Shown piece by piece: positions 8,281-64,000 of a stretch of DNA of 64,000 bases. The translations under genes were made by a program, and so were the position numbers. Positions within the stretch are counted from its first letter, which is position 1, and each line of letters begins with the position of its first letter. A model generated the notes under the pieces. The model was not told where the DNA came from. It was given only the letters and a program-made list of their open reading frames with translations, and ran no database searches. Origin of the DNA: Arcuatula senhousia (taxonomy: Eukaryota > Mollusca > Bivalvia > Mytilida > Mytilidae); contig OZ020307.1 in NCBI GenBank assembly GCA_963971305.1, positions 9,499,501-9,563,500 of the forward strand, written 5' to 3'.

Positions 8281-10879
8281 TTTAAATTCTTATTAAAATT
8301 CAACAATTGGAGCCTCAAAAAAATCATTTGGAACTATTCCAACTTCAGAAAATGTCCATAATGATTCTTCGTCAGCTTTGAGAGTTAAGTGTCCTCCCTT
8401 ACCATCAACCAACTATAAGGTGAGTTCTCGTTCCTTATTGCAATTTGGTGGTCCTGCGAGTGTAGTTTATGTTGTCTGTTTCTTCGTGTTTAATTTGTGC
8501 TTCCTTTTTGGAATCAAGACATGTCTATAGAATAATAAATCTTAGTTTGATTTGTTTTAAACATAGCTTTCGTCATGTGTAGTTTTAATCTATGGTCAAA
8601 TGTAGGAATGCGAGCCACGGCCGTTGGTCACATTGGAGAGATTTTTGATGTTTCCATTGTGAAACTGGCACTAATATAGTTCAGCTTGTAGTTTGTATCA
8701 CCTTAAGTAACGTAACATCTCAGTATTTTCAATTGATACGAGATCTTCGCTCCAATATCTATATATTTATATATAAAGTTGGAGTTTTCTTGATAATGGA
8801 AAGGTCCTCAGAGTAAATTTGACAAGTTTAAAAATCAGAATTGCATTTACTTTGTCTTAATTGAACTTTAAGTTTATTAGCTGAGAGACATTTAGTTCTT
8901 ATGCAACATTGATGACAAAGAGCAATTAAACAAATTTGTCATAATGTTACGTCCAGGGTTTCTACATATTCCTTCCTCTGTAAAATGTTCAACAGTCGAT
9001 CTCAATTATACCATAATATTTAAAATTAAGGTAAACTCGAGGTATGCAAGATTGTTCTTTAAAAAGATAAAGGTCGCAGTCCTTTTAAAGCTTTACTAAC
9101 CACAAGTGGAAGCTTTCTAATTTTCACATCTTTATTTTGATCATGTGGCGCCTTTAATAATTACCATTACTGGCTTATCTTTTTAGATTGGCTTTACTAG
9201 ACTTTTGTCTATTTTCCCATTTGATATGCAGCAAATCAGTCCTATCAATATGTAGGGTTGTCACTGAGTTCATGTCCGTAATGATCTTCCCCAAAGGCAA
9301 ATCTTTAATTAATTGACAGGATAAACATATACTGTCAGATCTTTATAAAAATATACATCAGTGCCGTTGATTTTATACAAGCAAAGGGTATAACACATTA
9401 TCGAAGAATTGTGCTTGCAGATCAAGCATCAAATAACATTCTTTTATTGTGACAAAAATATTTTATTGATTTTAGAAAGTATACTTTTTATTAGTGTTTG
9501 CTTGTACTAGCAGCGGTACTGGTATACTGTAACCACACTTTCAAAGAAGAATTCTTAACAATTATCAATCTGCATTTTCCATCTGTAGCCTTTTAGTTAG
9601 CAAAGAGAACCATGACATCTCTTACGTGTTTTTTATACTAAATAGTATATAAATCCATTTAATCAACGCATTATTATGCGTTATGGAAATGTTCTTATCT
9701 CAGTTTTGTTGGCAATAATATTGACAAAAAATCTTTACTTTCAAAAAATTTCCACTGCTCTTGAATCTTTTTCAATCAAATGGGGACTTTTAAAAATTTA
9801 AAATAAAGTAATTAAATTTTGAAATCTTAAACTTTTCATCTTTTAATAACTCAAATACACTTTGGTTTACATTTTGTTATCTAGTCACTGCACAACTCAA
9901 ATTTAGAGTTATAATATTTGATAAAATAGCTAATGCAGATATTTATATTAGTTTAATATTCAAAAGCATATCAAAGTAAACAATCAAGAAAAAACAGGTA
10001 CTTCAAATCTGTTAGTTTGTATGTAGCAAAAAGACACCTTTTTAAAGTCAACGGGAAAAACTAAATATCAGTTGGGGTCATATAACAACAGTTACTTTTT
10101 TTAAATCTTTGTGAACATTCAGCGTGGTTTAATAGGTCTTGTCCTGACACAAAATTATGCAAATTGCGAACTTATTTCATGGTATAACAAGTCTTCAAGA
10201 ATTGTTGGGTTTTTTAAAAGAACCCAGCTGGATGTCATTAAAAAACTGTTCATTCCGTTTAGTTGCATCTGAATATTTTAAGGAGTAACCATTCATCAGA
10301 ACCATTCGAATCGAACAAATAGTAATTGCATACACAAAAATAATAGACCTTATATTATATCTAATCTCAGGCAGTCAAAAACAGCACATTGGATTGATAT
10401 CGACAATGTACATTACAACGGAAAAGTAAAGAAAATATATAGAATTATATAGAATTATAACACAAAAACAACAAATTATAACGAGACTTTTTAAGACATA
10501 TAAATTAACTTCATTCAGGTTTGCACTTGAATTTCTCATGTGATACTATGCATTATGCAAAAAATGAACAGATACACTGAGTCTGTTGCTCTATGTCGAC
10601 AGACGAAAAAATCGTAGTAAAGGTTAAGCTTTATACCTTTTTTAGAAGGAAATTAAATGTACTCCATATTCTCTCACAAACAATGAAATGTAGAATAAGC
10701 AAACTTCATTAAATACACAGTGGAAAGACGCCTATGTGGCAAGTGAAGACCAATAGTCCAATGATTAAGATATATACAATTCAAAACCATTCCTTAAACG
10801 GTCAAAGAAAGGCCACTTCCTGACATGGACACTTTACATAAAGACGGCCAATACAAACATAAGCTTTGACACAGATTCC

Positions 10880-11455: not shown

Positions 11456-11884
11456 GAATAAAGGGCCAAGTTTGTTTTAAGGACTTCTGTATATGTTTTG
11501 TGTTATTTATATATCTATACTACTAATTTAACGAAGCGCTTTTTGTTAGCCGGGTTGCAGCCAAAACAACAAATGCTACGACTAAGCTTTATATATCAAA
11601 AAAGGGGGATGGTTACGCCGTTTGAAAATTTCATCAGCACATATGCAATTATGTCTGCAGTTTGCCAATTAACCTAATTTATTGATCCTGAGACGCTATA
11701 TCCGTCATCGTTCCAGAATTACCCCCACATTTTTAAAATGTTTGAAATTATTTCCCCTGTTTTTAGACAATTACAAAAGAATCCCACGTAACTTTTCCAT
11801 TAATTATGATATATATTTAAAAGATTTTATACAATAGATTATATTGGAAAGGTTGCTATAAAAATGTATGAAAAAAACATATTA

Positions 11885-12115
11885 ACAGTTTTATACCAGT
11901 TTTTGGTATTTGTATTTTGAAGACACTGAGTCGATAACTGCTGCTGGTGGACCAGAATCCCCGAGGGTAATCACAAGCCTAGTCGCCAGACTTGTCTGAC
12001 ACAAATTCACCAATGAATTCAAATATTTTTGTCATTGAGATTTCAGATTGTGAAATTCAAAATTGTTTTTAAACACCAGGTTTGATTGGCAAAACTGATT
12101 AAACTCGGGATTTTT
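11885..12115 (+). mobile_element. Hammerhead-module body (5' copy) upstream of RT-A
   Basis: Carries TTTTATACCAGTTTTTGGTA, then CTGCTGGTGGACCAGA, CCCCGAGGGTAATCACAAG and the palindromic CAGACTTGTCTGACAC, ending AACACCAGGTTTGATT. The same body follows the hammerhead at 33525. The ribozyme part itself is decayed here. Confidence 0.65.
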
Positions 12116-12134
12116 CAAAAAGAATGGAAAACGC

Positions 12135-12740
12135 AGGTACAAATATCTGGTAGTCGATTATACTAAGACTTACTTTGTCATCAATGAGTCTAAGAAAAAT
12201 GTCCTTTCACTAAACGGTTCTCGATTCGGTGACTTTCCCCATCCCATTTATACTCAGGAACTTCTAGGAAGTTTGCTTCATATTTAGATAAACATCTCAT
12301 AATAGACTCTCGAGGAAAACTTTCAAATAAGCTTTATGACAAACGTGATAAATTCAACTTTTTAAATGTAAACATGTGCAGCAACATTCCGTCCGCTCCA
12401 GATTATGGGGTTTACGTATAACAATTGATTCGATACTCCAGAGCTTGTGGGAACTACATCGATTTCCTTGGCAGAGCGTCACATTTGACATAAAAAATTC
12501 TAACACAAGGTTATGTTGCTCATTGGTCGCTGTCTTCAATCAAGAAATCTAACGTAGACATCATGAACTCGTAACCAAATATGGAATTTCTTTCTTGCAG
12601 ATGATTGCAGATGTTGGTTTGTCATAGAGTTTTGTGATGTCTTCCTTTACCGGATTTGACACACTGAATCGGAAATAAGCGGTGCGACGGGTGAGCTATA
12701 CAAGGCAGGAACCGCTTACTCTTCATGAGCATCTGTTGAA
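12135..12740 (+). pseudogene. RT-A fragment, interrupted by an RT-B 3' UTR
   Basis: Remnants follow the order of RT motif C and beyond: SLNGSRFGDF, YLDKHLIIDSRG, KLYDKRDKFNF, then SNIPSAPDYGVYV and FLGRAS, in broken frames. It is preceded by the hammerhead-module body and continues at 13141 after an insertion. This is the most complete RT-A layout in the window (module, RT, 3' UTR, module). Confidence 0.75.
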
Positions 12741-12742
12741 TT

Positions 12743-13140
12743 CTTGGTGAATTGAACTTTTTTCGATTTGATTTTTGAAGTATGTTATTTTTTTTGTGCT
12801 TTGTACAAGATAAACAATAGGGGAAGGTTTGGCCCCCCAAAAAACTAGTTTAACCTCGCCACATTTTATATGTGCCTGTCCTAAGCCAGGAATCCTTGTC
12901 AAAGCTTTTGTTTGTCCTTGTCAACTATCTGTTTTTGTTTTATGTCAAGAAAAGGTCTTTCGTTGATAATCTAGGGATTTGTTTGAATTTTATGTATTGT
13001 AATTTTAGTCTTGGGCTAATGCAAGACAGGGAGCAATGACCTTTGGTCATGTTGAAGACTGCTGGCTGTTTTCAATTGTGATTTTTTAAATTGCCGTTTC
13101 TTTAATGTTGGTTGTGTCGCGTACACTTATTCAACATCTC
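12743..13140 (+). mobile_element. RT-B 3' UTR copy inserted in RT-A
   Basis: Shares with 35214-35620 and 58507-58920 the segments GTGCTTTGTACAAGATAAAC, TATGTGCCTGTCCTAAGCCA, GGTCTTTCGTTGATAATCTA and TTGTGTCGCGTACACTTATT. It separates the RT-A tail into two parts and replaces a few bases of it. Confidence 0.75.
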
Positions 13141-13325
13141 TTTAATTATCGTCTACTTGTTACGACCTGAGTTTGTGTTGTTGATTTCTGTTCGGTTTAT
13201 TTTGTGTTTTTGATGCTTTGTTTTTCCTCGTGCTGCTCGTGTTCGTGTTTACCGGTTTTGTCGTTGCCTTTTCGGACTTTTGACACTAGAATTCCCACTG
13301 TTGGTCCCTCTTTGTTTCTTGTACT
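13141..13325 (+). mobile_element. RT-A 3' UTR, continuation
   Basis: CTTGTTACGACCTGAGTTTG resumes the RT-A tail and runs through CGTGCTGCTCGTGTTCGTG and TTTTCGGACTTTTGACAC to the start of the 3' hammerhead module. Confidence 0.7.
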
Positions 13326-13430
13326 GCACATGGGCGGTATCCTTGGTGCTAGATCTGCCTTTCCCTTTTGAACATTTTGGTTACGTTCAATACTCTTGGT
13401 TTTTGACCTTCCAATGTTGTGATAAAAAAA

Positions 13431-13472
13431 GCTGCAGATGAGAGGTTACTCCTTGAAATATGCATAAACAGC
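13431..13472 (+). ncRNA. Hammerhead ribozyme remnant at the RT-A 3' end
   Basis: GCTG/CAGC closes stem I. Stem II is GAGG-TTACT-CCTT and GAAA is intact, but the catalytic CUGAUGA reads CAGAUGA (13435-13441) and the U16.1 position is A. Probably inactive. It lies in a module copy (about 13326-13520) directly after the RT-A tail. Confidence 0.65.
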
Positions 13473-14378
13473 AAAACCAATTTGACCGCTTTATACCCGC
13501 TTTTGGTATTTGTATTTATACTGTTAGTTCTGACTCCTTGAATGGATGATATAAACTTTAATAATTATAAGGGTTATTGATACCAGGGGAGTATCGACTA
13601 ACAATTAATTATGCCATCACTTCAGCAATACGAGTAATATTGTGTTGGTTAAAGCAAGAATATTTATTGAATATTTATTTTGTCGAAGTCATTGTTCAGC
13701 AAATGACCTCTACGTTAACCACACGCTAGGAGTTCCTATCATTAGAAATAACTCTTTTTGACCTGATTGCAGTTAAGTCATTTTGTGTGAACTAACCGCA
13801 TAAAATGCGTTGTGTATTATCCTTGTATCTTTATGTGTTTTATTTCTTTTTTTCGTTATTATGTTTTTCAAAGTATGGGCATCAACTTCGACTTGTTTAA
13901 CTGACTGCTGAAATTGATTTTTATGCATGTATAGTCACAAGATTCATTGTTGAAGTTTCAAAGCGTGTTAATTTATTTTCACACCTTTTTATTCTTGATG
14001 ACAAATGGTAAATGAACAACAACTTCTCCAACATTTTAATTCTCTTACCTCCCTTGGTAACGCAGCTATGATTTCGAATAACCTGTGGATATTTTTCGAT
14101 TCTTTGGCGAACATTTTGACCTATTGTTCTTGTCCCTTTTGTGAAAAAAACCCTACCACAACTAAAAAGAAAATATATATGCTCATGACAGTTCATGACT
14201 GATAACACGCTCCTGACACTCGAACATACAAATCATTCATAAGAAAAACGACATTGTCCCTAAATTCAAGGGGTTTTACTACATTGTTTTTCAAGAACAT
14301 AAGCACTAATGATATAAACAAAATCAAAAGATATTGAAAAATAATAAAACAGAATCGAAGTGTTTAACTCAAACTATG

Positions 14379-16995: not shown

Positions 16996-17840
16996 TCAAA
17001 CGGAAGTGGAATGTGTGTGTGACGATTTGATGTTCACTGCCAATACTACTTTAAAATGCTTACAATCAATATCAGAGTTACTGATAAAACTATGATTTCT
17101 TTCTGTTGTTGGGTCCATATTTCTATTTTCTCCGGGTAACTTCCGCCAAAATCTACATTTTGATAAAATCATCTTCCTATATTTAGAATGAATTAAGGTA
17201 TAAAATAAAGGATTGAGAAATGAAGACATTTTGGCAAAGATGGCGGGGAGTGCTGACGACACCGGCGTAACTAACGAGGTGTCAAAGAACTGGCCAATCA
17301 CTGATATCGTAGCATACGGCAGCCACGATATACAATATATCAAAACCAAGACAAAGACTGTCTTTGTTGTCTTCCACTCTATATTTATATTGTTTTTGTT
17401 TTTCGATGCTATTCTTAAACAAAATTGTCTCTCCTTTGTTTTGTGATGACAATGTACAATTTCTTTCTGGTGCTCAAATACTTGTTGGATGATTTTCACG
17501 TAAGACACAACGATAACAATGAGCTGTATAATAAAGCAAAACACCAGGATAGACAGAACGTATGATCTATTGTTCGTGGTCCGTGTAAAGTAATCAAATG
17601 TACATGAAGTCCGCGAACCTTCCATCATATGGTCACCCCATCCTAAATATGGCGGGATCGACCATAGGAAGGAATACATCCAAATACCAATGCACAAACA
17701 GAACACTCCTCGTTTGGACAGTCGGTGTGTATTTGGCATGTTGTAGGTTATAACGATACATCTCTCAACTGCCAGTACTGCTAATGTGTTAATAGACACG
17801 AAACCCGAAAGTCCACCACAGAACGCAAAAAGGCGACATC
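16996..17840 (-). CDS. Rhabdomeric-type opsin, last coding exon (TM3 to C-terminus)
   Basis: The exon encodes 280 residues of a seven-helix, light-sensing G-protein-coupled receptor. It opens after an acceptor (TTTCAG) with the last two bases of a codon, then the TM3 disulphide Cys (residue 1) and CRLFAFCGGLSGF, a typical r-opsin TM3 start. Other landmarks are ERC in place of DRY (25-27), the ECL2 segment GWGDHMMEG..SCTFDY with its Cys at 79, HQKE in loop 3, SWLPY in TM6, the retinal-binding Lys at 203 (codon 17230-17232, context AIFAKMSS) and NPLFY at 209-213. The helix-8 HPK of Gq opsins is HSK here. The frame ends at TGA 16996-16998; a possible AATAAA lies at 16752-16757 on the same strand. 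ECL2, loop 3 and TM6-7 resemble squid rhodopsin and melanopsin most, so a mollusc r-opsin, perhaps non-canonical, is inferred. The altered ERC and HSK could affect Gq coupling. The + frame over 17213-17446 is a shadow. Confidence 0.93.
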
Positions 17841-17965: not shown

Positions 17966-18022
17966 TGAAATATGCATTTACAGCATAACCAAATTACCCG
18001 TTTTGGTATTTGTATTATGCAA
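17966..18022 (+). repeat. 3' half of a hammerhead module
   Basis: TGAAATATGCATTTACAGCA followed by TAACCAAATTACCCGTTTTG matches the end of the hammerhead and the start of its body at 33930-33965. The catalytic CUGAUGA half is missing. Located in the opsin intron close to the last exon. Confidence 0.5.
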
Positions 18023-29369: not shown

Positions 29370-29650
29370 ATAGATGAGCGCAGATGTGCGTTTGCTATAA
29401 GGCTTTGTTTTGTCCTCCTTTATTTGACTTGGCATATTAATTTGACAATTAGTAGTGGGACGGGTGCGCAAAAGCTAGCATGAACTGCTTCCTCTTCTGG
29501 AGCACCTGAGTTCAATCTTGGTACGCTTTGTTGATTGGCTTTCTGTTGTTTTTGCATTTTTTGCTTTTGTGTTTTCCGTTTCTTTGTGCTGTTAAACAAA
29601 AGGCTTTGTGGATTTTTCCAATTCTTGAAATTCTTAATTGTTTAAGCCCT
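29370..29650 (+). mobile_element. RT-A C-terminal end plus 3' UTR, decayed
   Basis: ATGAGCGCAGATGTGCGTTT corresponds to the SQMSADVGL end, followed by GTGGGACGGGTGCGC and GGAGCACCTGAGTTCAATCT. A hammerhead-module remnant follows. Confidence 0.65.
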
Positions 29651-29659
29651 AAAGTTTCT

Positions 29660-29805
29660 GTTATTGTATTTCACATGGTCGATACCCTTGTTTCTGTATT
29701 TTCTGGGCAGCAATTTTTCTCCTCAAATACTTTGATTTTTATCTTCCAATTATCTTGATACCAATGCTGATGATTGAAGTAACTCTTCATATATGCATAA
29801 TGACA
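29660..29805 (+). mobile_element. Hammerhead-module remnant after RT-A tail
   Basis: CACATGGTCGATACCCTTG and the degenerate ribozyme ATGCTGATGATTGAAGTAAC (29764 onward) are present. Stem I is shortened and the GAAA element is lost, so it should be inactive. The order RT-A tail then module repeats that seen at 13141-13520. Confidence 0.55.
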
Positions 29806-30994
29806 TTTCCGTAAAATTTGTATTAAAGCATTGTTTATCATTCAGAAAATACTGTTTCCTTCTTAGCCGTTTTATACCATACGACGAAGGCTTCTAATGA
29901 GGACTTGAAATTTATTTTTTGAATGAATAATTAGAAGCCCTTACTCCATACATGCCATAATAAGAGTCACGTTATAATCTGTCAAAACACTTTATTCGAT
30001 TTAAGCCATTCATTTCCTTGTTGTCAACCTACGCTGTTTTGTTTTGGTATAAAATTGGTTATCACTGTAAGAATTAAAGAAACAAATGATGATTTTGATG
30101 ATTATATAGTTAAGGCGATTTAATAAAGGACAATTAAAGGAGAATCAAGGCTATAACTGATTGCCCGATTTTTTTTATGGTTAAGCTTTTAACTGTCATG
30201 ACCTAGACTCTACCACAAGAAAAATGATTTTTTATTACTATACTCATTTATTCCAGTCGAATAATAAAAAAAGGAGTATTCAAATATAATCAAGACCAGC
30301 TGATTGAGCTGTCCGACTTAATGTCAATATGGCTATAAATCTGACCATTACCTTGGACTCAATAAAGCTCAATAAAGTCTGAAGGGGTGTTTATTATGAA
30401 ATGTTTGTTTACGTCTTTGAAATGAACAAAAATCATACTCAGTATCTACAAATGGCCAGCCATTTCCGCCACAGATAGATTGATTGTTTAATAAAACAAT
30501 TCATTTGATACTTAATTCTTTTTTTTTCTTTTCACAGAAACTAATAGGTAATTTTCTTGGGCAATATCATTTCTACTTGTCTGCAAGTCTTCTAATGAGT
30601 TCTAGTTTTCGTCTTTGTTTGTCCACGTAGACATTATAGAAAGGTTAACTTAATTAAGAAGAATCGGATATTATTTGAAATAAGTATAAATGGCGAAGGA
30701 CATGTTGATATTGATTTGAATCATTGTTCTAGTTATGGTCTTCAACCGATAGATTAAATACTAATTGATTTAACTATGTTAGCCAGCTGATATAATATGT
30801 GCCCCGAGACAATAATTTATTATTTTTCTGAAACTATGCATTAAGTACAAACACATCATAACCATCCCAAATAGATCCACAACAATGTTTAAATGTGTTT
30901 AATATATTTATATGAACACAATGATAAAATTACCACCCTTGACTTGATTACCCTCAGAACAAAGCAGAAATAACCAGATTTTTAATAAATCAAG

Positions 30995-32599: not shown

Positions 32600-33460
32600 C
32601 TTAGAATTTGACATTTTGAAAGTTACTTTCATTCATTGATTGTTGATTTTAATTTACTCTACTTTTTTCATGTCTTATTTATTCATCATTCTGTTATTTA
32701 ATAAACGATCAATTCAGAATAATATAACTGAAATGAAATTCATGATTTTTATTAAGTAACTAGGCATTAGAGAAAATAATTGGTAATATTACGTAATAAC
32801 CTTCATACAGCATGACAAACACGTGAAATGCTTCATAAAATGCAAAGTTGTAAGAATCAAATTAGTACTGCTTTATAGATTTAAATTATTTTAATAAACA
32901 TCTTTTTGTAATGAGCATTAAGTACACCAGCAAACGACTTTTATAGATAACATTTTGATGTATATCATTTGTATATAAGCCAAGAAAAAAGTTATTTGCA
33001 GCCGCCAGTAGTCTATGGTGAGATTTTTAGTGATTTTCAATGTTCTATGATACAACCTAGTTATCTAAAACATAATCGGTTAACAAAAACAAACAATTTA
33101 AAAAAACAGTCCGTCTGATGGTGAATTCATACCTAATAAAACGCAAGTTAAAGAAGATATTCCTAAAGATCATTATATGTTACACTACGTGCTAAAAATT
33201 AGGGCGACAAAATAAAATTATAGAGCTAAATAATCCCCGATTGTTCAAAACTAAAATCCAAAAACTTTAATGTTATTAAGACAAAAAACATATATGCAAA
33301 TGGTCATAAAATAACAATATCTATTGAATAGTTTAACTTAAAATAAATAAATAAAACAGGTTCACCAGCCACGCATTAAGGAACACACTATTCGTTTTAA
33401 ACAGGCGTGATAATTATGTCAAACAAACAAATACGAAAGTAATAATGGTACAAAAACGTT
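32600..33460. other. No recognisable feature
   Basis: AT-rich DNA without frames, inverted repeats or similarity that I could detect to other parts of the window. Confidence 0.4.
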
Positions 33461-33521
33461 TAAGCTAACGATCCCAAATTTAGAATGTTTTTGGTTTGTG
33501 ATCTTCCAATTTTTGATTCAA

Positions 33522-33567
33522 ATGCTGCTGATGAAAGGTTACTCCTCGAAATATCGATACACGGCAT
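33522..33567 (+). ncRNA. Hammerhead ribozyme, slightly decayed copy (type I)
   Basis: Stem I is ATGCTG (33522-33527) with CGGCAT (33562-33567). CUGAUGA is at 33528-33534, stem II AAGG/CCTC, and GAAA at 33548-33551. Compared with the copy at 33902, stem II has lost its closing pair and U16.1 is C, so cleavage is doubtful. Upstream boundary of a 380-nt direct-repeat unit. Confidence 0.75.
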
Positions 33568-33941
33568 AATCAAATTAACCGTTTTATTCACGTTTTTGGT
33601 TTGTATTTTGAAACTACTGGCTCGATAACCGCTGCTGGTGGACCAGAGGTTCCCGAGGGTAATCAAACGACTGGTCGTCAGACTTGTCTGACACGAATTT
33701 ACCAATAAATATCTAATATTTTTATCATTGAGATTTCCACTTGTTTAATTCAAAAATGTTTAAACACCTGGTTTCTTTCCTTGCAATGCACATGGTCGAT
33801 ATCCTCGGTGCTGGATTTGGCTTTCCTGTTCGAACTTTTTTGGTTTTGAGAACTTTCCATTTAAGGTTTTTGGTTTTAGCTCTTACAATGTTTTGATTCA
33901 AATGCTGCTGATGAGAGGTTACTCCTTGAAATATCGATATA
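33562..33941 (+). mobile_element. Retrozyme-like monomer bounded by hammerhead cleavage sites
   Basis: 380 nt between the two predicted cleavage points. The first half matches the module 5' of RT-A at 11885 (CTGCTGGTGGACCAGAGG, CAGACTTGTCTGACAC, AAACACCTGGTTT). The second half matches the module 3' of RT-A at 13326 (GCACATGGTCGATATCCTCG, CTGGATTTGGCTTTCC). The join replaces the RT body. It has no frame and no RT, so it would be non-autonomous. The alternative is a pseudo-LTR of a Penelope-like element left after deletion. Confidence 0.7.
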
Positions 33942-33947
33942 CAGCAT
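33902..33947 (+). ncRNA. Hammerhead ribozyme, type I, apparently intact
   Basis: Stem I is ATGCTG (33902-33907) with CAGCAT (33942-33947), a perfect 6 bp. The CUGAUGA core is at 33908-33914. Stem II is GAGG/CCTT (33915-33918 with 33924-33927) with a 5-nt loop. GAAA is at 33928-33931. Short stem III is ATA/TAT (33931-33933 with 33938-33940) with loop TCGA, and U16.1-H17 is UA, which predicts cleavage after A33941. Every conserved core nucleotide is present. The very short stem III is as described for hammerheads of Penelope-like elements and retrozymes. Confidence 0.85.
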
Positions 33948-34699
33948 AACCAAATTTACCGTTTTCTTCCCAATTTTGGTACTGTATTTTCTTAAATGAA
34001 GCTTCTTTTGTCGGGCTTGAACCAAAATTATTACGAAAACCAGCAAGGTGGCCAATCTTTAGTTTGCTTTTAAATGAAAGATATTAACATGTTTTGCCTT
34101 TTAAGACCATAAAATTCAATCTTCACTGACAGTTTTATAGTAGCAACGGTGTCTACATCAAACGTGAATGACAGGAATAAAATCACACAGATAAAAATTT
34201 AATCACCAACCGGAGATTAAATTTTCATGTGCAGGTTTTACTAGTCATCCTAGATACAAGAGTGGAAAAATAATAAGAGCTAGCACTATCGTACTATTGT
34301 GGGGTTGTTTTTTTTTTAATAACTTTAGACAAAAAAAAATCACAGGAAATTTGCTTTTGTTTTTATTCAAAGCAAATAATTGCAATTGTTTGCATGTACA
34401 ATTTTCATGAATGACTTATTGGAAAAAACCAAATCGTTACATTTTATAGAAATATCATACTTTCTTTATATGTAATCTTCGATGAAGTATGACTCTCTAT
34501 ATATCAATTGAATGCTTTTATATGGTCATAATCATATACCTTACCTGGCAATAAAGTGTTTTTTATTGCAATAATTTGTTTTGTTTCATATTGCCGTTTT
34601 CACCGTCGCTAACATTCAAACTATGTACTACCAAATATCAATGTTCAACATTTAGATAGATATATCAATGGCAAAATTACAAGCTTTAATTGATATTTA

Positions 34700-45904: not shown

Positions 45905-45975
45905 AAAATCGATCGAAAGTATCAGGCTCACAATTGTCGAATGACATGAAGTACACATTGTAGCAAACAAAAACA
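45905..45975. repeat. Target-site duplication, left copy (about 71 bp)
   Basis: Identical to 48029-48099. Contains ATCGATCGAAAGTATCAGG and ends GTAGCAAACAAAAACA. The exact edge is blurred by the A-run. Confidence 0.9.
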
Positions 45976-47834
45976 CGGAAATTAACCTGTGTGTCTTACA
46001 AAATGGTATATTTTCAGAATTTTTTACCATAGGTAGAGGCTGTAGGCAAGGGGATCCAATTTCACCATATTTATTTTTACTTTGTGTTGAAATTATGGGA
46101 ATTTTAATTAGAAACAATCAAGAAATAAAGGGTATAAAGATAAAAGAGAATACCTATAAGATCTTACAGTATGCTGATGATACAGGAATCTTCCTAGATG
46201 GTACAGAAAAAAGCTTAAAGAAAACTCTTGATCTACTTGAGCAATTTTCAAAATATTCAGGCTTCACTCCTAACTTTGACAAAACAAAAGCAATTTGGAT
46301 TGGTTCTAAAATAAAAAGTAATGAGAGATTATGTAAGAATAAAAAACTAATCTGGACTAATGAGCCTTTTGAAGTACTAGGCATTACTTTTAGTACCAAT
46401 CTAAAAGATGTTATAAATTTAAACTACAGTAAAAGAATATGCAATATAGAAGCAAAAATAAAGAGCTGGCAAAAAAGAAACATTAGTGTTCTAGGTAGAT
46501 TAACAGTTGTTAAAACATTGCTTATTCCAACCCTTACTCATTTATTTATTGCTATTCCAACCCCTGACAATGTACTTTTGAAGAAATTGGAAAGCATATT
46601 GTTTAACTATGTATGGGAGGGTAGGGATAGAATAGCAAGAAACCAAATGGTTCAAAACGTCTCACAAGGAGGATGTGGTATGATCCATCTAAGTACTTTT
46701 ATTAAATCGCTTAAGCTTACTTGGATAAGGAGACTGTTAAATAATGAATCCACTTGGAAAGAACTTGTGCTGACACTTATTAACGTAGATTGTAAAAAAC
46801 TTACTTTATTTGGGGATGATTACCCATCTGACTTAAGCAAAAAGACCAACAATATTTTTTGGAAACAAGTCTTTGATATCCTCTCAGAATATAAACAAAT
46901 TGACATACTAAGCAACCATAATGATATTTTTAAATACCCTTTGTGGAAAAATTCGGATATTAAAATCGACCGAAAGACTATTTTTTTTAAGAAATGGTAT
47001 GAGTCAGGAATCTACTATATAGGCGACCTGTTTGACAGAAATGGAAATTTCCTACAATATCAATCTCTATGTAACATTTACAACATTAAAACTCCAATCA
47101 CATTATACTATGGAATAAGAGAAGCACTTTTTACAAAATGGGAGAAACTTACAACTTCTATATCACTTAATGTTCAAGATCTTCCATTTATACCTATAAA
47201 AATGGAATTATTTATTTGTTACCAAAAGGGAGCAAATATGTTTTATCAAACTTTTATTAAAAAGCTAAAATTTCCGCAAAAGTATAAGGAAAAGCGGTTG
47301 ATAAATTTAAACCCTCCCTTTGAAATTAATTGGAAATTTGTCCATAACAGCAATTTTTCAACAACGAAAGATACAAAACTAATATGGTTTCAATTTCGAC
47401 TAATTCATAGAATTTTAGCAACAAACCAATATCTGTATAAAATTGGAAAGACCAATAACCCTTTGTGCTCTTTCTGCAAGACTGATGATGAAACCATTAT
47501 GCACTTATTTTACGAATGCAATGTCGTTAATGAGTTTTTCGTCAGCTTTGAGAGATGGATATATAATAGAACATCTACTTTACTTAACATCACCAAAGTG
47601 GAATTAGTGTTTGGAAAAATTGGAAATAAGTTTATTGTCCAAAATCTTCTTCTTCTTATTTTTAAATTTTATGTCTATAAGCAGAGGTGTAGAGACGAAT
47701 TACTCTTTCTCCCTGCTCTTAAGGCAGATATTTACAGCTACTACAAGCAAGAGCAATATAGTTCCTTAGTCAATGGGAACAAGGTGTTCTTTGACAAAAA
47801 ATGGGAGAAATACAAACCTTTGTTTGAAGAATAA
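45976..47834 (+). CDS. LINE ORF2 C-terminal part: reverse transcriptase and C-terminal region
   Basis: The frame is open from the truncation point, well before the first Met (46095): ...NLCVLQNGIFSEFFTIGRGC, then RQGDPISPYLFLLCVEIM (RT motif B region), YADDT at 46170-46184 (motif C with the catalytic Asp pair), and GFTPNFDKTKAIWIG (motif D/E region). A long tail follows with a Cys/His cluster CSFCKTDDETIMHLFYEC near 47468-47520 and stop TAA at 47832-47834. In L1-type LINEs this protein nicks target DNA and reverse-transcribes its own mRNA. The endonuclease and RT motif A lie in the missing 5' part, so this copy cannot move by itself. About 600 codons remain without a stop. Assignment to the L1/Tx1 group rests on motif style and the zinc-knuckle-like C-terminus. 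Confidence 0.88.
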
Positions 47835-48028
47835 GAAAAGAAACATATAAGAAGTGCTACAATTAAATTTTATACATCTTATAAAATAAGTTTGTTGCCC
47901 ATGCCCATGCTCTAGCAATTGGTAATATTCATCAATAACGACTTTCTGAATGAGTGCGAGTGTGAGAGCTTGTCTTTGTATTTCATATATATTGTAAAAA
48001 TGTCTGAAAAACAATAAAAATTACAAAA
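45976..48028 (+). mobile_element. 5'-truncated L1/Tx1-like LINE, recent insertion
   Basis: The 2.05-kb element starts in the middle of the RT domain and ends with AATAAA (48013-48018), a few bases and an A-run. It is flanked by a perfect direct repeat of about 71 bp (45905-45975 and 48029-48099). The identity of the duplication and the intact frame indicate a young insertion. Truncation at the 5' end is normal for target-primed reverse transcription; the duplication length is not. Confidence 0.88.
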
Positions 48029-48099
48029 AAAATCGATCGAAAGTATCAGGCTCACAATTGTCGAATGACATGAAGTACACATTGTAGCAAACAAAAACA
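48029..48099. repeat. Target-site duplication, right copy (about 71 bp)
   Basis: Identical to 45905-45975, directly after the LINE A-tail. Confidence 0.9.
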
Positions 48100-55962: not shown

Positions 55963-56843
55963 AATGAACTAAAAAAACTTGTTAAAAATTCTCTTGATGT
56001 TTTAGACAAACTTCGGGCATTTGAAAATACTTTTCAATCCGTAGACAGCTATGACTTTTCCACTTTATATACTAATCTACCTCACAATCTTATCAAAAAG
56101 AAATTTGAATATTTAATTAAATGGTGCTTTGACAAATCTAAAAGTGACTACATCTGTTCTAAAGTGTCACAAGTATTTAGTAAATCGTTTTTTAGTAACG
56201 AAACCCACAAAGGTTATGTTAATTGGACCGACATAGAAGTTATTACTGCATTAAACTTTCTTTTAGATAATATTTACATCCGGTTCGGTAAACAAATATA
56301 TCGCCAAGTCATTGGAATTCCAATGGGAACCAATTGTGCTCCACTCATAGCTGATCTGTTTTTATATTGTTACGAATCACAGTTTATGGCCAAGCTACAG
56401 AAAGACCCAAACAAAAACCACCTTATCGAAACTTTTAACAATACATATAGGTACTTAGATGACATACTTGCTCTAAACAACCCCACATTCTCAAATTTTA
56501 TAAATGATATATATCCTAAAGAATTAACCCTAAATAAAGCAAACTCAACCGACAGTAGATGTCCATTTCTAGATTTGGACTTAAGCATTATCAATGGTAG
56601 ATTACACACTAAAGTATATGATAAACGGGATGACTTTTCATTCCCAATAGTTAATTTTCCGTTTCTTGAAGGAGACGTACCATTAGCTCCAGCTTACGGG
56701 GTATACATTTCACAATTAGTCAGGTATGCTCGCATTTGCAGTGATGTGTCTGATTTTAATGATAAAAACCGTTTTATTACAGAAAAATTGCTAAAACAAG
56801 GTTACCGTTACCACAAATTAGTCAAATCTTTTACAAAATTTGC
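55963..56843 (+). CDS. RT-B reverse transcriptase, first unit (5'-truncated)
   Basis: Open from 55963 and not dependent on the GTG near 56164. Reads VDSYDFSTLYTNLPHNLIKK (motif A, Asp in FDFST-type context), then QVIGIPMGTNCAPLIADLFL (motif B, 56311-56370), NTYRYLDDILALNNPTF (motif C with the catalytic Asp pair, near 56442-56490), CPFLDLDLSIINGRLHTKVY and DKRDDFSFPIVNFPFLEGDV. The IPMGT..APL, R(Y)xDD and FLDLDL style resembles Penelope-like and related RTs; no GIY-YIG domain is visible. The frame is intact up to the SINE, and runs on into it to 56928. It would copy element RNA in the germ line. As found it is a broken copy because of truncation, SINE insertion and internal duplication. Confidence 0.85.
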
Positions 56844-57338
56844 GTCCCGTGCGGGGCCCGGGTGGCGAATAGGCCCGCAGCAGAGCCTAGCTTGTCGTAA
56901 GAGGCGACTAAGGGTATTGGGATTCTGACGTCGGGTCAGTGCTCAGCCCACAGAGCGACCAAGTGTGTACCCTAGGTGGCTGAATAGGGTAGCCCTCGTC
57001 CGCGGGGGTTGTCAGGTCTATAATACAGAAACCCTGACCGCCGACCATAGTGGGCCAACGTGTGTGGAGAGTGCCACGCTTCATGCACGTAAAAGACCCC
57101 TTTGTGGACCGCCCAGTAGTGCACCACATAGGCTAAATTTTCCGACCCTACCCACCTCTCCCCTTTTTCCTGTGGTTCTTCAAAATTTACCGGTCCTTTG
57201 TTTCCCACCCCATCCTCATATTTCATTTATCATCATCATTTCATGTTCATTTTATCATCCTTTTCATGTTCATCGCCTGTAAATAACCTATATAGCGTTG
57301 CACGGGCGTAAAACACCAACTCACTCACAACTCACTCA
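56844..57338 (+). mobile_element. GC-rich SINE (subfamily 2) inserted in RT-B
   Basis: A 495-bp element starting GTCCCGTGCGGGGCCCGGGT, with GGTGGCTGAATAGGGTAGCC and an (ACTC)n tail. Flanked by a perfect 16-bp duplication CTTTTACAAAATTTGC (56828-56843 and 57339-57354). Related to the SINEs at 51635, 52628 and 61064, but clearly diverged in the middle. Confidence 0.92.
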
Positions 57339-57354
57339 CTTTTACAAAATTTGC

Positions 57355-57508
57355 ACATAAATATGGACATCTCATCGAAAAATTTGATTGTACACGTAGA
57401 TTTCTGATTGTTAAAGGAATATCTCATCCTGACTTTTATAGCAATATAGTTTATAAAGCACAAAAATTCAAAAATAACCTTATGGAAATAAAAAACTGGC
57501 TTAAAAAC
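57355..57508 (+). CDS. RT-B reverse transcriptase, first unit continued after the SINE
   Basis: Removing the SINE and one target duplication restores the frame: FTKFAHKYGHLIEKFDCTRR, then FLIVKGISHPDFYSNIVYKA and QKFKNNLMEIKNWLKN, which runs directly into the second unit at 57509 (tgt gct cca). Confidence 0.8.
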
Positions 57509-58272
57509 TGTGCTCCACTCATAGCTGATCTGTTTTTATATTGTTACGAATCACAGTTTATGGCCAAGCTACAGAAAGACCCAAACAAAAACCACCTTAT
57601 CGAAACTTTTAACAATACATATAGGTACTTAGATGACATACTTGCTCTAAACAACCCCACATTCTCAAATTTTATAAATGATATATATCCTAAAGAATTA
57701 ACCCTAAATAAAGCAAACTCAACCGACAGTAGATGTCCATTTCTAGATTTGGACTTAAGCATTATCAATGGTAGATTACACACTAAAGTATATGATAAAT
57801 GGGATGACTTTTCATTCCCAATAGTTAATTTTCCGTTTCTTGAAGGAGACGTACCATTAGCTCCAGCTTACGGGGTATACATTTCACAATTAGTCAGGTA
57901 TGCTCGCATTTGCAGTGATGTGTCTGATTTTAATGATAAAAACCGTTTTATTACAGAAAAATTGCTAAAACAAGGTTACCGTTACCACAAATTAGTCAAA
58001 TCTTTTACAAATTTGCACATAAATATGGACATCTCATCGAAAAATTTGATTGTACACGTAGATTTCTGATTGTTAAAGGAATATCTCATCCTGACTTTTA
58101 TAGCAATGTAGTTTATAAAGCACAAAAATTCAAAAATAACCTTATGGAAATAAAAAACTGGCTTAAAAACCTTTTGAAAAAAGGATACGAATTCAATGTT
58201 TTAGTAAAATCTTTGCATTTGGTATGTTTTGGCAGAAATATTGATAGCTTAATAGTAACTTTAAAACGTTAA
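57509..58272 (+). pseudogene. RT-B second unit (in-frame duplication) and C-terminus
   Basis: 57509-58170 repeats 56335-57508 without the SINE: 662 against 663 bases, almost identical. It again carries CAPLIADLF, RYLDDILALNN and FLDLDLSIING. A lost A near 58012 shifts the frame and one substitution changes DKRDD to DKWDD. After the shift the C-terminal end reads LLKKGYEFNVLVKSLHLVCF and GRNIDSLIVTLKR, stop at 58270-58272. Confidence 0.85.
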
Positions 58273-58925
58273 ATTTTTTACTTTTTATCCACTGTATTAT
58301 TTATAAGCACCACAGCGATCAAGTATGTCGGTTCTGTATGGTGATACAACTCTTAATCATTCATTGTTTTGACGTGGGGTGTCGGATTTAGAACTGATGT
58401 ATTTGATTCTTTTACATCAATCGATAAATGTTTCTTAGCTAGTTGTCAGTAACTTCGAGTGTTCTCAAGAGAGTTCCTCCTTGTCTTGTTATTTTCGTAC
58501 AGTATTTTGTCTTAGGTTCTCTCTTGTTGAATTGAACTTTTGTCGATTGAGTTTTACAGTGTGTTTTTTATATGTTGCTTTGTGCAAGCTTATCAATAGG
58601 GGGAAGGTTGGATCCAAAAAACTAGTTTAACCCCGCCACATTTTATATGTGCCTGTCCTAAGCCAGGAAACTTTGCCAAAGCCTTTGTTTGTCCTTGTCA
58701 TTCTATGTTAACTGTTTTATGTCAAGAATTGAGTCTTTCGTTGATGATTTAGGGATTGGTTTTGATACTTTTGTATTGTATTATAAGTCTTGGGCCAATG
58801 CAAGACGGTAAGCAGTGACCTATGGTCATGTTGAAGACTGCTTGCTGTTTTCCGTTGTGATTTTTTGAATTGCTGTTTGTTTATGTTTGTTGTGTCGCGT
58901 ACACTTATTCCACATCTCAATATCG
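58273..58925 (+). mobile_element. RT-B 3' UTR (reference copy)
   Basis: Follows the RT-B stop directly. Shared with 34985-35625 and (second half) 12743-13140. Landmarks are GTATGTCGGTTCTGTATGGT, CGAGTGTTCTCAAGAGAGTT, TATGTGCCTGTCCTAAGCCA and TTGTGTCGCGTACACTTATT. Confidence 0.8.
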
Positions 58926-58929
58926 TATA

Positions 58930-60040
58930 TAACTATATAAGTCATGTGACTTCTACGGAGTCATCTCACTTCATACAAAAATACGCTTGTGGATTTCTAG
59001 TGGTATAAAGGGACTTACGTCCCTGATTAACCGAATTTTATATCGCCTTGAAATGTTTGGTTTAACTGCTGGTCATTGATCAATAACAAATCGGTTAACT
59101 AGCTTCTACCCAAAACATGTTATTATCTTAAAATGAATACTTAAAGATTTTCCAGTGATTTCGGACCATTATATGCTGGCTCTAATGCCATCTGACACAG
59201 GTCGTAATGAATATTAATGCGTCTCAGATAAAAAATTATAGTGCTAAAGCGTAAAAAGGCAGAGCTAACTTAAAACGCTGAAAATAAAGAACGACCAGTT
59301 TTTCACAAGCTGATAATGACCATATTAAAGTTGTTCGTTGTAAGTAATATATCTTAAGAGGGAAAAATATAATTTCTTCTTCTGTTTGTGAGACGGTTAC
59401 CATAGACCTGTGAATAAATATGTGTATGGTGAAACGTTAGAAAAAAATTCTGACTGATAGGTTTATATATACATGTAGTCGTGACCTAAGGATGAAAGCA
59501 CAAAACTCACTAGGTACCATGTGTTGTCAATAGTATTACAAACCATCGCCAAAGTTGACTGATCCAGCTACAGTCGAACGGGAGACCACGTGGAGGTTCT
59601 GGTTTAAATTGGGGAGCATTTATTATACACATTGAACATTTGTTAAGAAAGCTGTTACAGTAATTTGGCTCCGCCCACTAAAACATCTGTTACGAAAGCT
59701 GTAAGTTTGCTGTACACACCTGAATATTTGGTTAGCTAGGTAAAAGGTAAAAGGTCAACAATGCTTGATTATACATCAACTGGCGTATTGATACATGAAA
59801 TGTAGTGCACATTTATATAGGAGCATGAAGATATACCTTTAAGACAATCTTTATAACATTTAATAATAATAAAATTACACAAGATAAATGTTCTATAATC
59901 GATCCTCCAGTAGCCTGACCGATTTTCTGTCAAGACTATATAAAAACGCGAAAATAAGATAGTTATATGAATACATAAAGCTCTTCCTAAAAGGTAATGT
60001 TATGTTTTCTTGTACATAGGACCTTATTTCTGTCCAATGC
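58930..60040. other. No recognisable feature
   Basis: AT-rich; no frame of note and no inverted repeat noticed. Confidence 0.4.
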
Positions 60041-62858: not shown

Positions 62859-63236
62859 TATGATGACCTGAGTATAAAAAACAGGATCTTTTCAAATATT
62901 GATTGAACAGTTAATATACCAAGTCAGCTAAAATGTCATTCAAAGAAATCCTCGAGTACTTTTTTAATGTTATAAAAATGTTTATAATAAGATTATTTTT
63001 CTCTAAATATATATATTCTAAATGACTTAAATGGTGTTTTGGACTGATTGATCCACACTAAATGTTAATGTTATATACACCAAAGTCAATTCTCAATTCA
63101 AGTATACAAAAATGCAAAGGGTTAAAAAAAAACAGATAAAAGCTAATGCGTCAGCAGAATGTTAAGAACTTGACTTCATTTCTTAGATTCGTCCATAGAA
63201 GCTTATATATGTCTTATTCTCAAATACTGTAAAATA

Positions 63237-64000
63237 AGAGTGGTGGAGGGAGGTCCGACAACAGGTACTGGAAAATAAGAAGGGTGGAGGGAGGTCCGAC
63301 AACAGGTACTGGAAAATAAGAGGGGTGGAGTGAGGTCCAACAACAAGTACTTGAAAATAAGAGGGGTGGAGGGAGGTCCGACAACAGGTACTGGAAAATA
63401 AGAGGGGTGGAGAGAGGTCCGACAATAGGTACTGGAAAATAAGAGGGGTGGAGGGAGGTCCGACAACAGGTACTGGAAAATAAGAGGGGTGGAGGGAGGT
63501 CCGACAACAGGTACTGTAAAATAAGAGGGGTGGAGGGAGGTCCGACAACAGGTACTGGAAAATAAGAAGGTTGGAGGGAGGTCCGACAACAGGTACTTCA
63601 AAATAAGAGGGGTGGAGGGAGGTCCGACAACAGGTACTGTCAAATAAGAGGGGTGGAGAGAGGTCCGACAACAGGTACTGGAAAACAAGAGGGGTGGAGG
63701 GAGGTCCGACAACAGGTACTGGACAATAAGAGGGGTGGAGGGAGGTCCGACAACAGGTACTGTCAAATAAGAGGGGTGGAGGGAGGCCGGACAACAGGTA
63801 CTGGAAAACAAGAGGGTTGGAGGGAGGTCCGACAACAGGTACTGGACAATAAGAGGGGTGGAGGGAGGTCGAACAACAGGTAAAGGACAATAAGAGGGGT
63901 GGAGGGAGGTCCGACAACAGGTACTGTAAAATAAGAGGGGTGGAGGGAGGTCCGACAACAGGTACTGGAAAATAAGAAGGGTGGAGGGAGGTCCGACAAC
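63237..64000. repeat. Minisatellite, 41-bp unit, at least 18 copies, open at window end
   Basis: The unit is GGTACTGGAAAATAAGAGGG then GTGGAGGGAGGTCCGACAACA. The 41-bp length shifts frame each unit and the unit is nearly stop-free on the minus strand, which creates long artificial frames (63183-63917, 63203-63958) of LPPPLLFSSTCCRTSLHPSY type. Confidence 0.97.

Follow-up and report, generated by a model that had tools for sequence, protein, structure and literature searches.

The mussel Mytilus galloprovincialis carries about 5,000 type I hammerhead ribozymes (HHRs) within repeats of 350-390 bp that form two similar families, according to the part of PMC7229834 drawn on here. Circular retrozyme RNA is reported there for the same species, as are co-existing Penelope-like elements with HHRs. 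The same part of that paper (Cervera and de la Pena 2020) proposes that a primed circle is copied into tandem cDNA and suggests Penelope-like or other elements as helpers, and those sections name no start site. A second point of reference is PAc of Anolis, in which internal reverse transcription starts 111-118 nt into the ORF, the hammerhead cut lies at 26, and a tail of 30-40 nt separates two starts (PMC11167929). By arithmetic on these published figures, the two starts of PAc reverse transcription are located some 85-92 nt and 45-62 nt beyond the cut.

A retrozyme insertion in the Arcuatula window

The sequence analyzed here, referred to as the window, is a 64-kb stretch of an Arcuatula senhousia contig with a GC content of 34%. 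The original prediction described two hammerheads in direct repeat, 380 nt apart, and both are present in the sequence as described, with HHR1 380 nt upstream of HHR2. The features of the locus are as follows:

33484..33609 (start perhaps 33459), plus strand: terminal direct repeat, copy 1 (alignment)
33522..33567, plus strand: HHR1, degenerate hammerhead with an A10.1-C11.1 mismatch and a U-to-C change at 16.1
33562..33941, plus strand: complete unit of 380 nt between successive cleavage sites (repeat alignment)
33863..33990, plus strand: terminal direct repeat, copy 2 (alignment)
33902..33947, plus strand: HHR2, intact type I hammerhead (anatomy, strict descriptor scan, shuffles)
between 33941 and 33942, plus strand: predicted cleavage site of HHR2 (hammerhead anatomy, descriptor scan)
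33942..33990, plus strand: tail, cleavage site to insertion 3' end (mapped insertion ends)

HHR2 reads AUGCUG-CUGAUGA-GAGG/UUACU/CCUU-GAA-AUA/UCGA/UAU-A^CAGCAU. No core position is missing, which confirms the perfect core claimed for this copy. Stem I comprises 6 bp, stem II 4 bp and stem III 3 bp with a UCGA loop, and the open stem I corresponds to the type I arrangement. In a descriptor scan of both strands, HHR2 was the sole strict type I hammerhead of the window. Dinucleotide shuffles of the window (n=300) gave a mean of 0.013 hits per window; only 4/300 contained any hit and none was as tight as HHR2. The defects ascribed to HHR1 also proved correct, namely the loss of the 10.1-11.1 pair in stem II and the C at 16.1. 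Because HHR1 lacks both U16.1 and this pair, cutting at the window locus is probably limited to HHR2. On the same grounds, the self-cleaved RNA of about 380 nt that had been envisaged for this locus is unsupported, and its release is doubtful.

Rfam 15 gave no hammerhead match at 33902, an outcome that the original prediction had named beforehand as counting against it. No hammerhead was detected over the whole window at the gathering score, and stretches of 901 and 81 bases gave none up to E=10; we think that the Rfam models are insensitive to the HHR2 variant. In addition, the free 46-mer has a minimum-energy fold other than the hammerhead (-8.5 versus -4.8 kcal/mol for the hammerhead). The lack of an Rfam match and the differing fold would suit a hammerhead that arose by chance within a repeat of some other nature. 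However, the shuffle expectation given above, the thousands of genomic copies and a covarying stem I pair (both described below) speak against this, and we regard it as extremely improbable. The stability of the 380-nt circle does not exceed that of its shuffled versions (n=100; z -0.1).

Both hammerheads lie inside the terminal direct repeats, which measure 126 and 128 nt and are 86% identical with gaps; a shorter alignment of 90 nt is 89% identical at a spacing of 380. The insertion is 1.3 units long and the direct repeats represent a partial unit. If derived from one RNA circle, the two repeats would have been identical at insertion, and their present divergence points to an old, decayed locus. 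No ORF of at least 100 aa is found across 33459-33990, and the unit does not encode the reverse transcriptase (RT) with GIY-YIG endonuclease that is a feature of autonomous Penelope-like elements. Elsewhere, the window contains an opsin-like GPCR exon (16996-17799, minus strand; nearest named relatives from Mytilus, 53-60%) and a repetitive stretch with two long overlapping leucine/proline-rich frames (63183-63958, minus strand). The opsin similarity, 60% for its best matches overall, suggests a host close to mussels that probably belongs to a genus other than Mytilus.

Related copies and arrays

Four further copies, B to E, were found in the window by blastn and nhmmer:

11868..12083, plus strand: copy B, left part (blastn/nhmmer)
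13311..13517, plus strand: copy B, right part, which includes the tail and a degenerate hammerhead, CAGATGA (blastn/nhmmer)
29602..29907, plus strand: copy C, degenerate (blastn/nhmmer)
17966..18017, plus strand: copy D, strongly 5'-truncated, ending at the same tail position as the window insertion (blastn)
10190..10425, minus strand: copy E, with degenerate hammerhead (blastn/nhmmer)

A possible fifth relative, at 50687-50529, is weak. The halves of copy B are separated by the 3' end of a 5'-truncated Penelope-like element. This arrangement raises the alternative that the retrozyme is an internally deleted Penelope-like element, with copy B (11868-13517) representing two halves around an RT remnant. 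It is in keeping with such an origin that the halves join at a single point of the unit (33772-33774) with the Penelope-like 3' part between them. However, the 3' terminus of the insert recurs elsewhere in the window, in Penelope-like copies that end without retrozyme sequence. Copy B is therefore better read as a Penelope-like insertion into a retrozyme, and descent of the retrozyme from a deleted Penelope-like element is quite unlikely. The 2,901 bases of an intact Penelope-like element covered by L079 also lack the hammerhead core, but this element belongs to a different family from the one inserted in copy B.

To assess abundance, 1.036 Gb of genome in 1,803 contigs was searched. The pattern CTGATGANNGGTTACTCC, which is part of the ribozyme, gave 4,569 + 4,511 = 9,080 genomic matches, compared with 0 for its reversed control. 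A search with the 380-bp unit, in which the best 40 of 5,635 candidates were scored, gave at least 93 matches. Of the first 100 pattern sites listed, all on contig C1, 42 have a neighbor 330-400 bp away and form 12 runs with a spacing of 343-383 bp. The retrozyme class assigned in the original prediction is well supported by these counts, and the tandem copies whose absence elsewhere would have told against it do occur. The window element combines the characteristics of non-LTR retrozymes: a complete type I core, a tandem unit in the range of about 150-450 bp, lack of coding capacity, GC below 50% and many copies. Its sequence features give good support to classification as a metazoan non-LTR retrozyme. 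It is of a known kind, since comparable Mytilus retrozymes are described in the cited part of PMC7229834.

Nine arrays were compared unit by unit. Mean identity is 98.5-100% within arrays and 93.7-95.2% between them, while the most similar array pairs reach 99.5% and are as alike as units within one array. The likeness within arrays fits an origin of each from one circle, although homogenization by unequal crossing-over could produce it equally well. Two cases of amplification were also encountered. L007 and L008 have their flanks in common and represent a single retrozyme insertion of 567 nt, with near-identical matches near contig ends, and this insertion seems to have been amplified inside a repeat near several chromosome ends. 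At L039-L041 (C1:9.24-9.26 Mb), each unit of a satellite of about 943 bp contains a truncated retrozyme copy of about 188 nt.

Of 127 full ribozyme copies, 103 retain H17, the 15.1-16.1 pair and the core, and 75 retain all 13 pairs; this estimate of conservation is biased, as most loci were selected with a pattern taken from the ribozyme motif. In a set of 64 copies, with each locus and strand represented once, the stem I pair next to the cut is A-T 38 times and G-C 23 times. It is paired in 62 of the 64, compared with a maximum of 55 over 2,000 shuffles; this covariation may reflect one ancestral double change. A 10-nt palindrome is kept in 46/62 loci, which is suggestive only of a dimeric hammerhead formed via palindromic stem III.

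Insertion ends and the template

Insertion ends were mapped for 78 loci, comprising the window insertion (L001), 7 best BLAST hits, 30 loci from the pattern list and 40 further loci (38 on C1 and 2 arrays elsewhere). The sample covers C1:0-16.75 Mb plus the best BLAST hits, and most loci were picked by the ribozyme motif. One unit of array L074 served as the reference, with coordinate 0 at the cut, and the lower length limit for segments was about 60 nt. One of the 78 loci (L061) yielded no segment. Overlapping loci (L011, L017-L019, L021, L022, L031, L038, L040, L041) were dropped before the count, as were all segments but one of the satellite L039.

The 3' end falls at +40..+60 past the cleavage site in 57/82 kept segments, a set that still contains two duplicates (the subtelomeric-like copy L008 and one in L054). 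By eye, 3 of the 25 remaining segments reach the same end: L001, L020 with a gap, and the much diverged L063. The other 22 comprise six that end at +29..+38 and 16 that end elsewhere, including five pieces of the complex locus L046. The 5' starts of the 57 segments are compatible with a uniform distribution (KS p=0.22), although the final tenth of the unit contains none. Segment lengths range from 96 to 2,581 nt (0.25 to 6.7 units), and 26/57 exceed one unit. Within the insertions, the cleavage junction is intact. Insertions that end at a fixed site past a hammerhead cut are the pattern expected from Penelope-like mobilization.

The same end can be followed within arrays. Those at C1:6230086, 6535932 and 9137262 contain 4, 5 and 6 tail words, of which 3, 4 and 5, respectively, continue into the unit; in each array, the terminal word is the one that does not. 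The arrays at C1:1532577 and 16160477 also have one non-continuing tail word each; as it is not the terminal one, mutation must explain these exceptions. Genome-wide, 2,940 of 6,388 tail word matches continue into the unit, an uncontrolled ratio (the short word of the control pair has 7,256 genome matches). In the mapped loci, the tail ratio is 26/44 compared with a control ratio of 49/75, a small difference in an array-rich sample.

Target sites were inspected for 55 insertions, i.e. the 57 fixed-end segments less the two duplicates. Target-site duplications of at least 7 nt flank 12 of these, compared with 7% of shuffled pairs, and the longest measures 19 nt (L069). L025 and L030 are inserted at two different points of one target repeat, so that each shows the empty site of the other. 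Base composition around the insertion sites is AT-rich and nothing more. No single common partner was found in the mostly unrelated flanks of the 55 insertions. A Penelope-like 3' end lies about 20 nt upstream of the insertion in L054, and the insertion in L015 is within a Penelope-like frame. The right flanks of L009, L016, L025, L030, L034, L074 and L077 belong to one common repeat family; this may reflect either a target preference or the mere abundance of the repeat.

One reading of these data is that the unit is ordinary satellite DNA, spread by unequal crossing-over or rolling-circle DNA with the hammerhead as a passenger. Arrays do exist, and L039-L041 together with the near-identical copies near contig ends (L007/L008 flanks) demonstrate that amplification at the DNA level happens. 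Array expansion does not, however, generate dispersed copies with a fixed 3' end, variable 5' ends and mostly unrelated flanks, and some copies carry target-site duplications. We therefore judge the satellite reading improbable. The combination of a fixed end, spread starts and multi-unit lengths instead suggests that reverse transcription is primed internally, at a single position on a circular or multimeric RNA. Because the cleavage junction is intact inside insertions, the template would be either circular or uncut; on the same basis, a linear monomer released by cleavage and primed at its own end is excluded.

We consider it very probable that the locus reflects a retrozyme combined with reverse transcription from a fixed internal start. 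Transcribed multimers would cut themselves at the hammerheads and the RNA of about 380 nt would be closed into a circle, steps that are inferred for Arcuatula and, according to the cited part of PMC7229834, shown in Mytilus. An RT encoded elsewhere would then prime cDNA at a DNA nick, with its start at a constant position within the RNA, 45-55 nt past the ribozyme cut. The cDNA would run against the RNA strand across the rejoined, or never cut, junction for up to nearly seven rounds and stop at random. The expected outcome of this process is the observed pattern of insertions that share their 3' end but differ at the 5' end, 0.25 to 6.7 units in length. Downstream of the start site, only a weak signal of conserved structure was detected.

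In a variant that does not exclude this reading, the template would be a linear uncut multimer from a genomic array and the ribozyme would be dispensable for mobility. In vitro, mutating the ribozyme of the anole Penelope-like element does not abolish insertion (PMC11167929), and an intact junction is expected either way. Against this variant, core residues are conserved in most copies (though most loci were motif-selected), circular RNA dominates in Mytilus in the part of PMC7229834 used here, and a single-unit donor would be unable to yield multi-unit insertions. Overall, an uncut template appears rather unlikely.

Candidate enzymes and known systems

A search centered on Penelope-like elements did not identify the mobilizing enzyme. 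The Penelope-like ORF of the window is recognizable as RT only by a weak Pfam match below the cut-off. It has at least 149 relatives among those scored of 54,075 candidates, with frames of up to 907 aa, and some are in tandem at 4,135-4,137 bp. L079 lies between two such tandem frames, and its start is presumably GIY-YIG-like, as judged by motif rather than by a domain search. In the 2,901 of about 4,136 bases of this abundant intact element that L079 represents, CTGANGA is absent from both strands; the search for a hammerhead-bearing Penelope-like partner covered this part of one family, and no core was found there. Penelope-like element pieces are also present at 55980-58930 of the window. 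Among these, a 170-bp segment recurs at both ends of a Penelope-like piece (57339-58170), 663 bp apart, and the arrangement resembles a 1.25-unit copy of a shortened circle.

Two other candidates were rejected. A tail shared by the retrozyme and the 3' ends of the copy B Penelope-like family was discarded, given that in four comparisons shuffled sequences did equally well in 248, 155, 470 and 15 cases out of 500. A LINE at 45976-48028 was rejected as a partner in view of its poly-A end, 71-bp duplication and best similarity to the unit of E 0.36. The surrounding region (45905-48099) is a young LINE-like insertion with an RT + zf-RVT ORF (46095-47834), a poly-A end and identical 71-bp direct repeats. 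DNA patterns gave 0 matches in viral and prokaryote collections; the body pattern among them had little power, as its gap is one base too short for the window copy itself.

A more specific proposal, which we put forward tentatively, is that a Penelope/Poseidon-type enzyme recognizes the retrozyme RNA circle and starts cDNA about 48 nt past the cut, matching Penelope-like elements in position relative to the hammerhead. In that case, the ribozyme would mark the register in which reverse transcription rolls around the circle, with the fixed 3' end as the missing link between both families. How animal retrozymes return to DNA was left open, and the fixed end provides a concrete start site at about +48.

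Comparison with known systems places the Arcuatula element among the retrozymes of animals. Plant LTR retrozymes are likewise non-coding, hammerhead-flanked and represented by circular RNA, but they carry type III HHRs, LTRs, a primer-binding site and a polypurine tract, as outlined in the cited parts of PMC7229834 and PMC7761336. The window element does not have type III HHRs in LTRs; its ribozyme is type I and its repeats are a partial unit. PAc resembles the Arcuatula retrozymes in its tandem units and in an internal start past the hammerhead cut that gives rise to a tail, and its second start range by arithmetic (45-62) contains their +45..+55. In contrast to the retrozyme, which encodes nothing, PAc encodes its own enzyme, and the two are likened here without sequence comparison. 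The Mytilus non-LTR retrozymes share with the Arcuatula element a type I HHR, tandem units of about 350-390 bp, many copies and a mussel host. This likeness is one of description rather than sequence, and the cited part of PMC7229834 does not mention a fixed 3' end. Likewise, no statement of a fixed insertion end for retrozymes was found in the literature searched, supplements being outside its scope. The class itself is already known, and a fixed 3' end is predicted for the retrozyme insertions of other animals as well.
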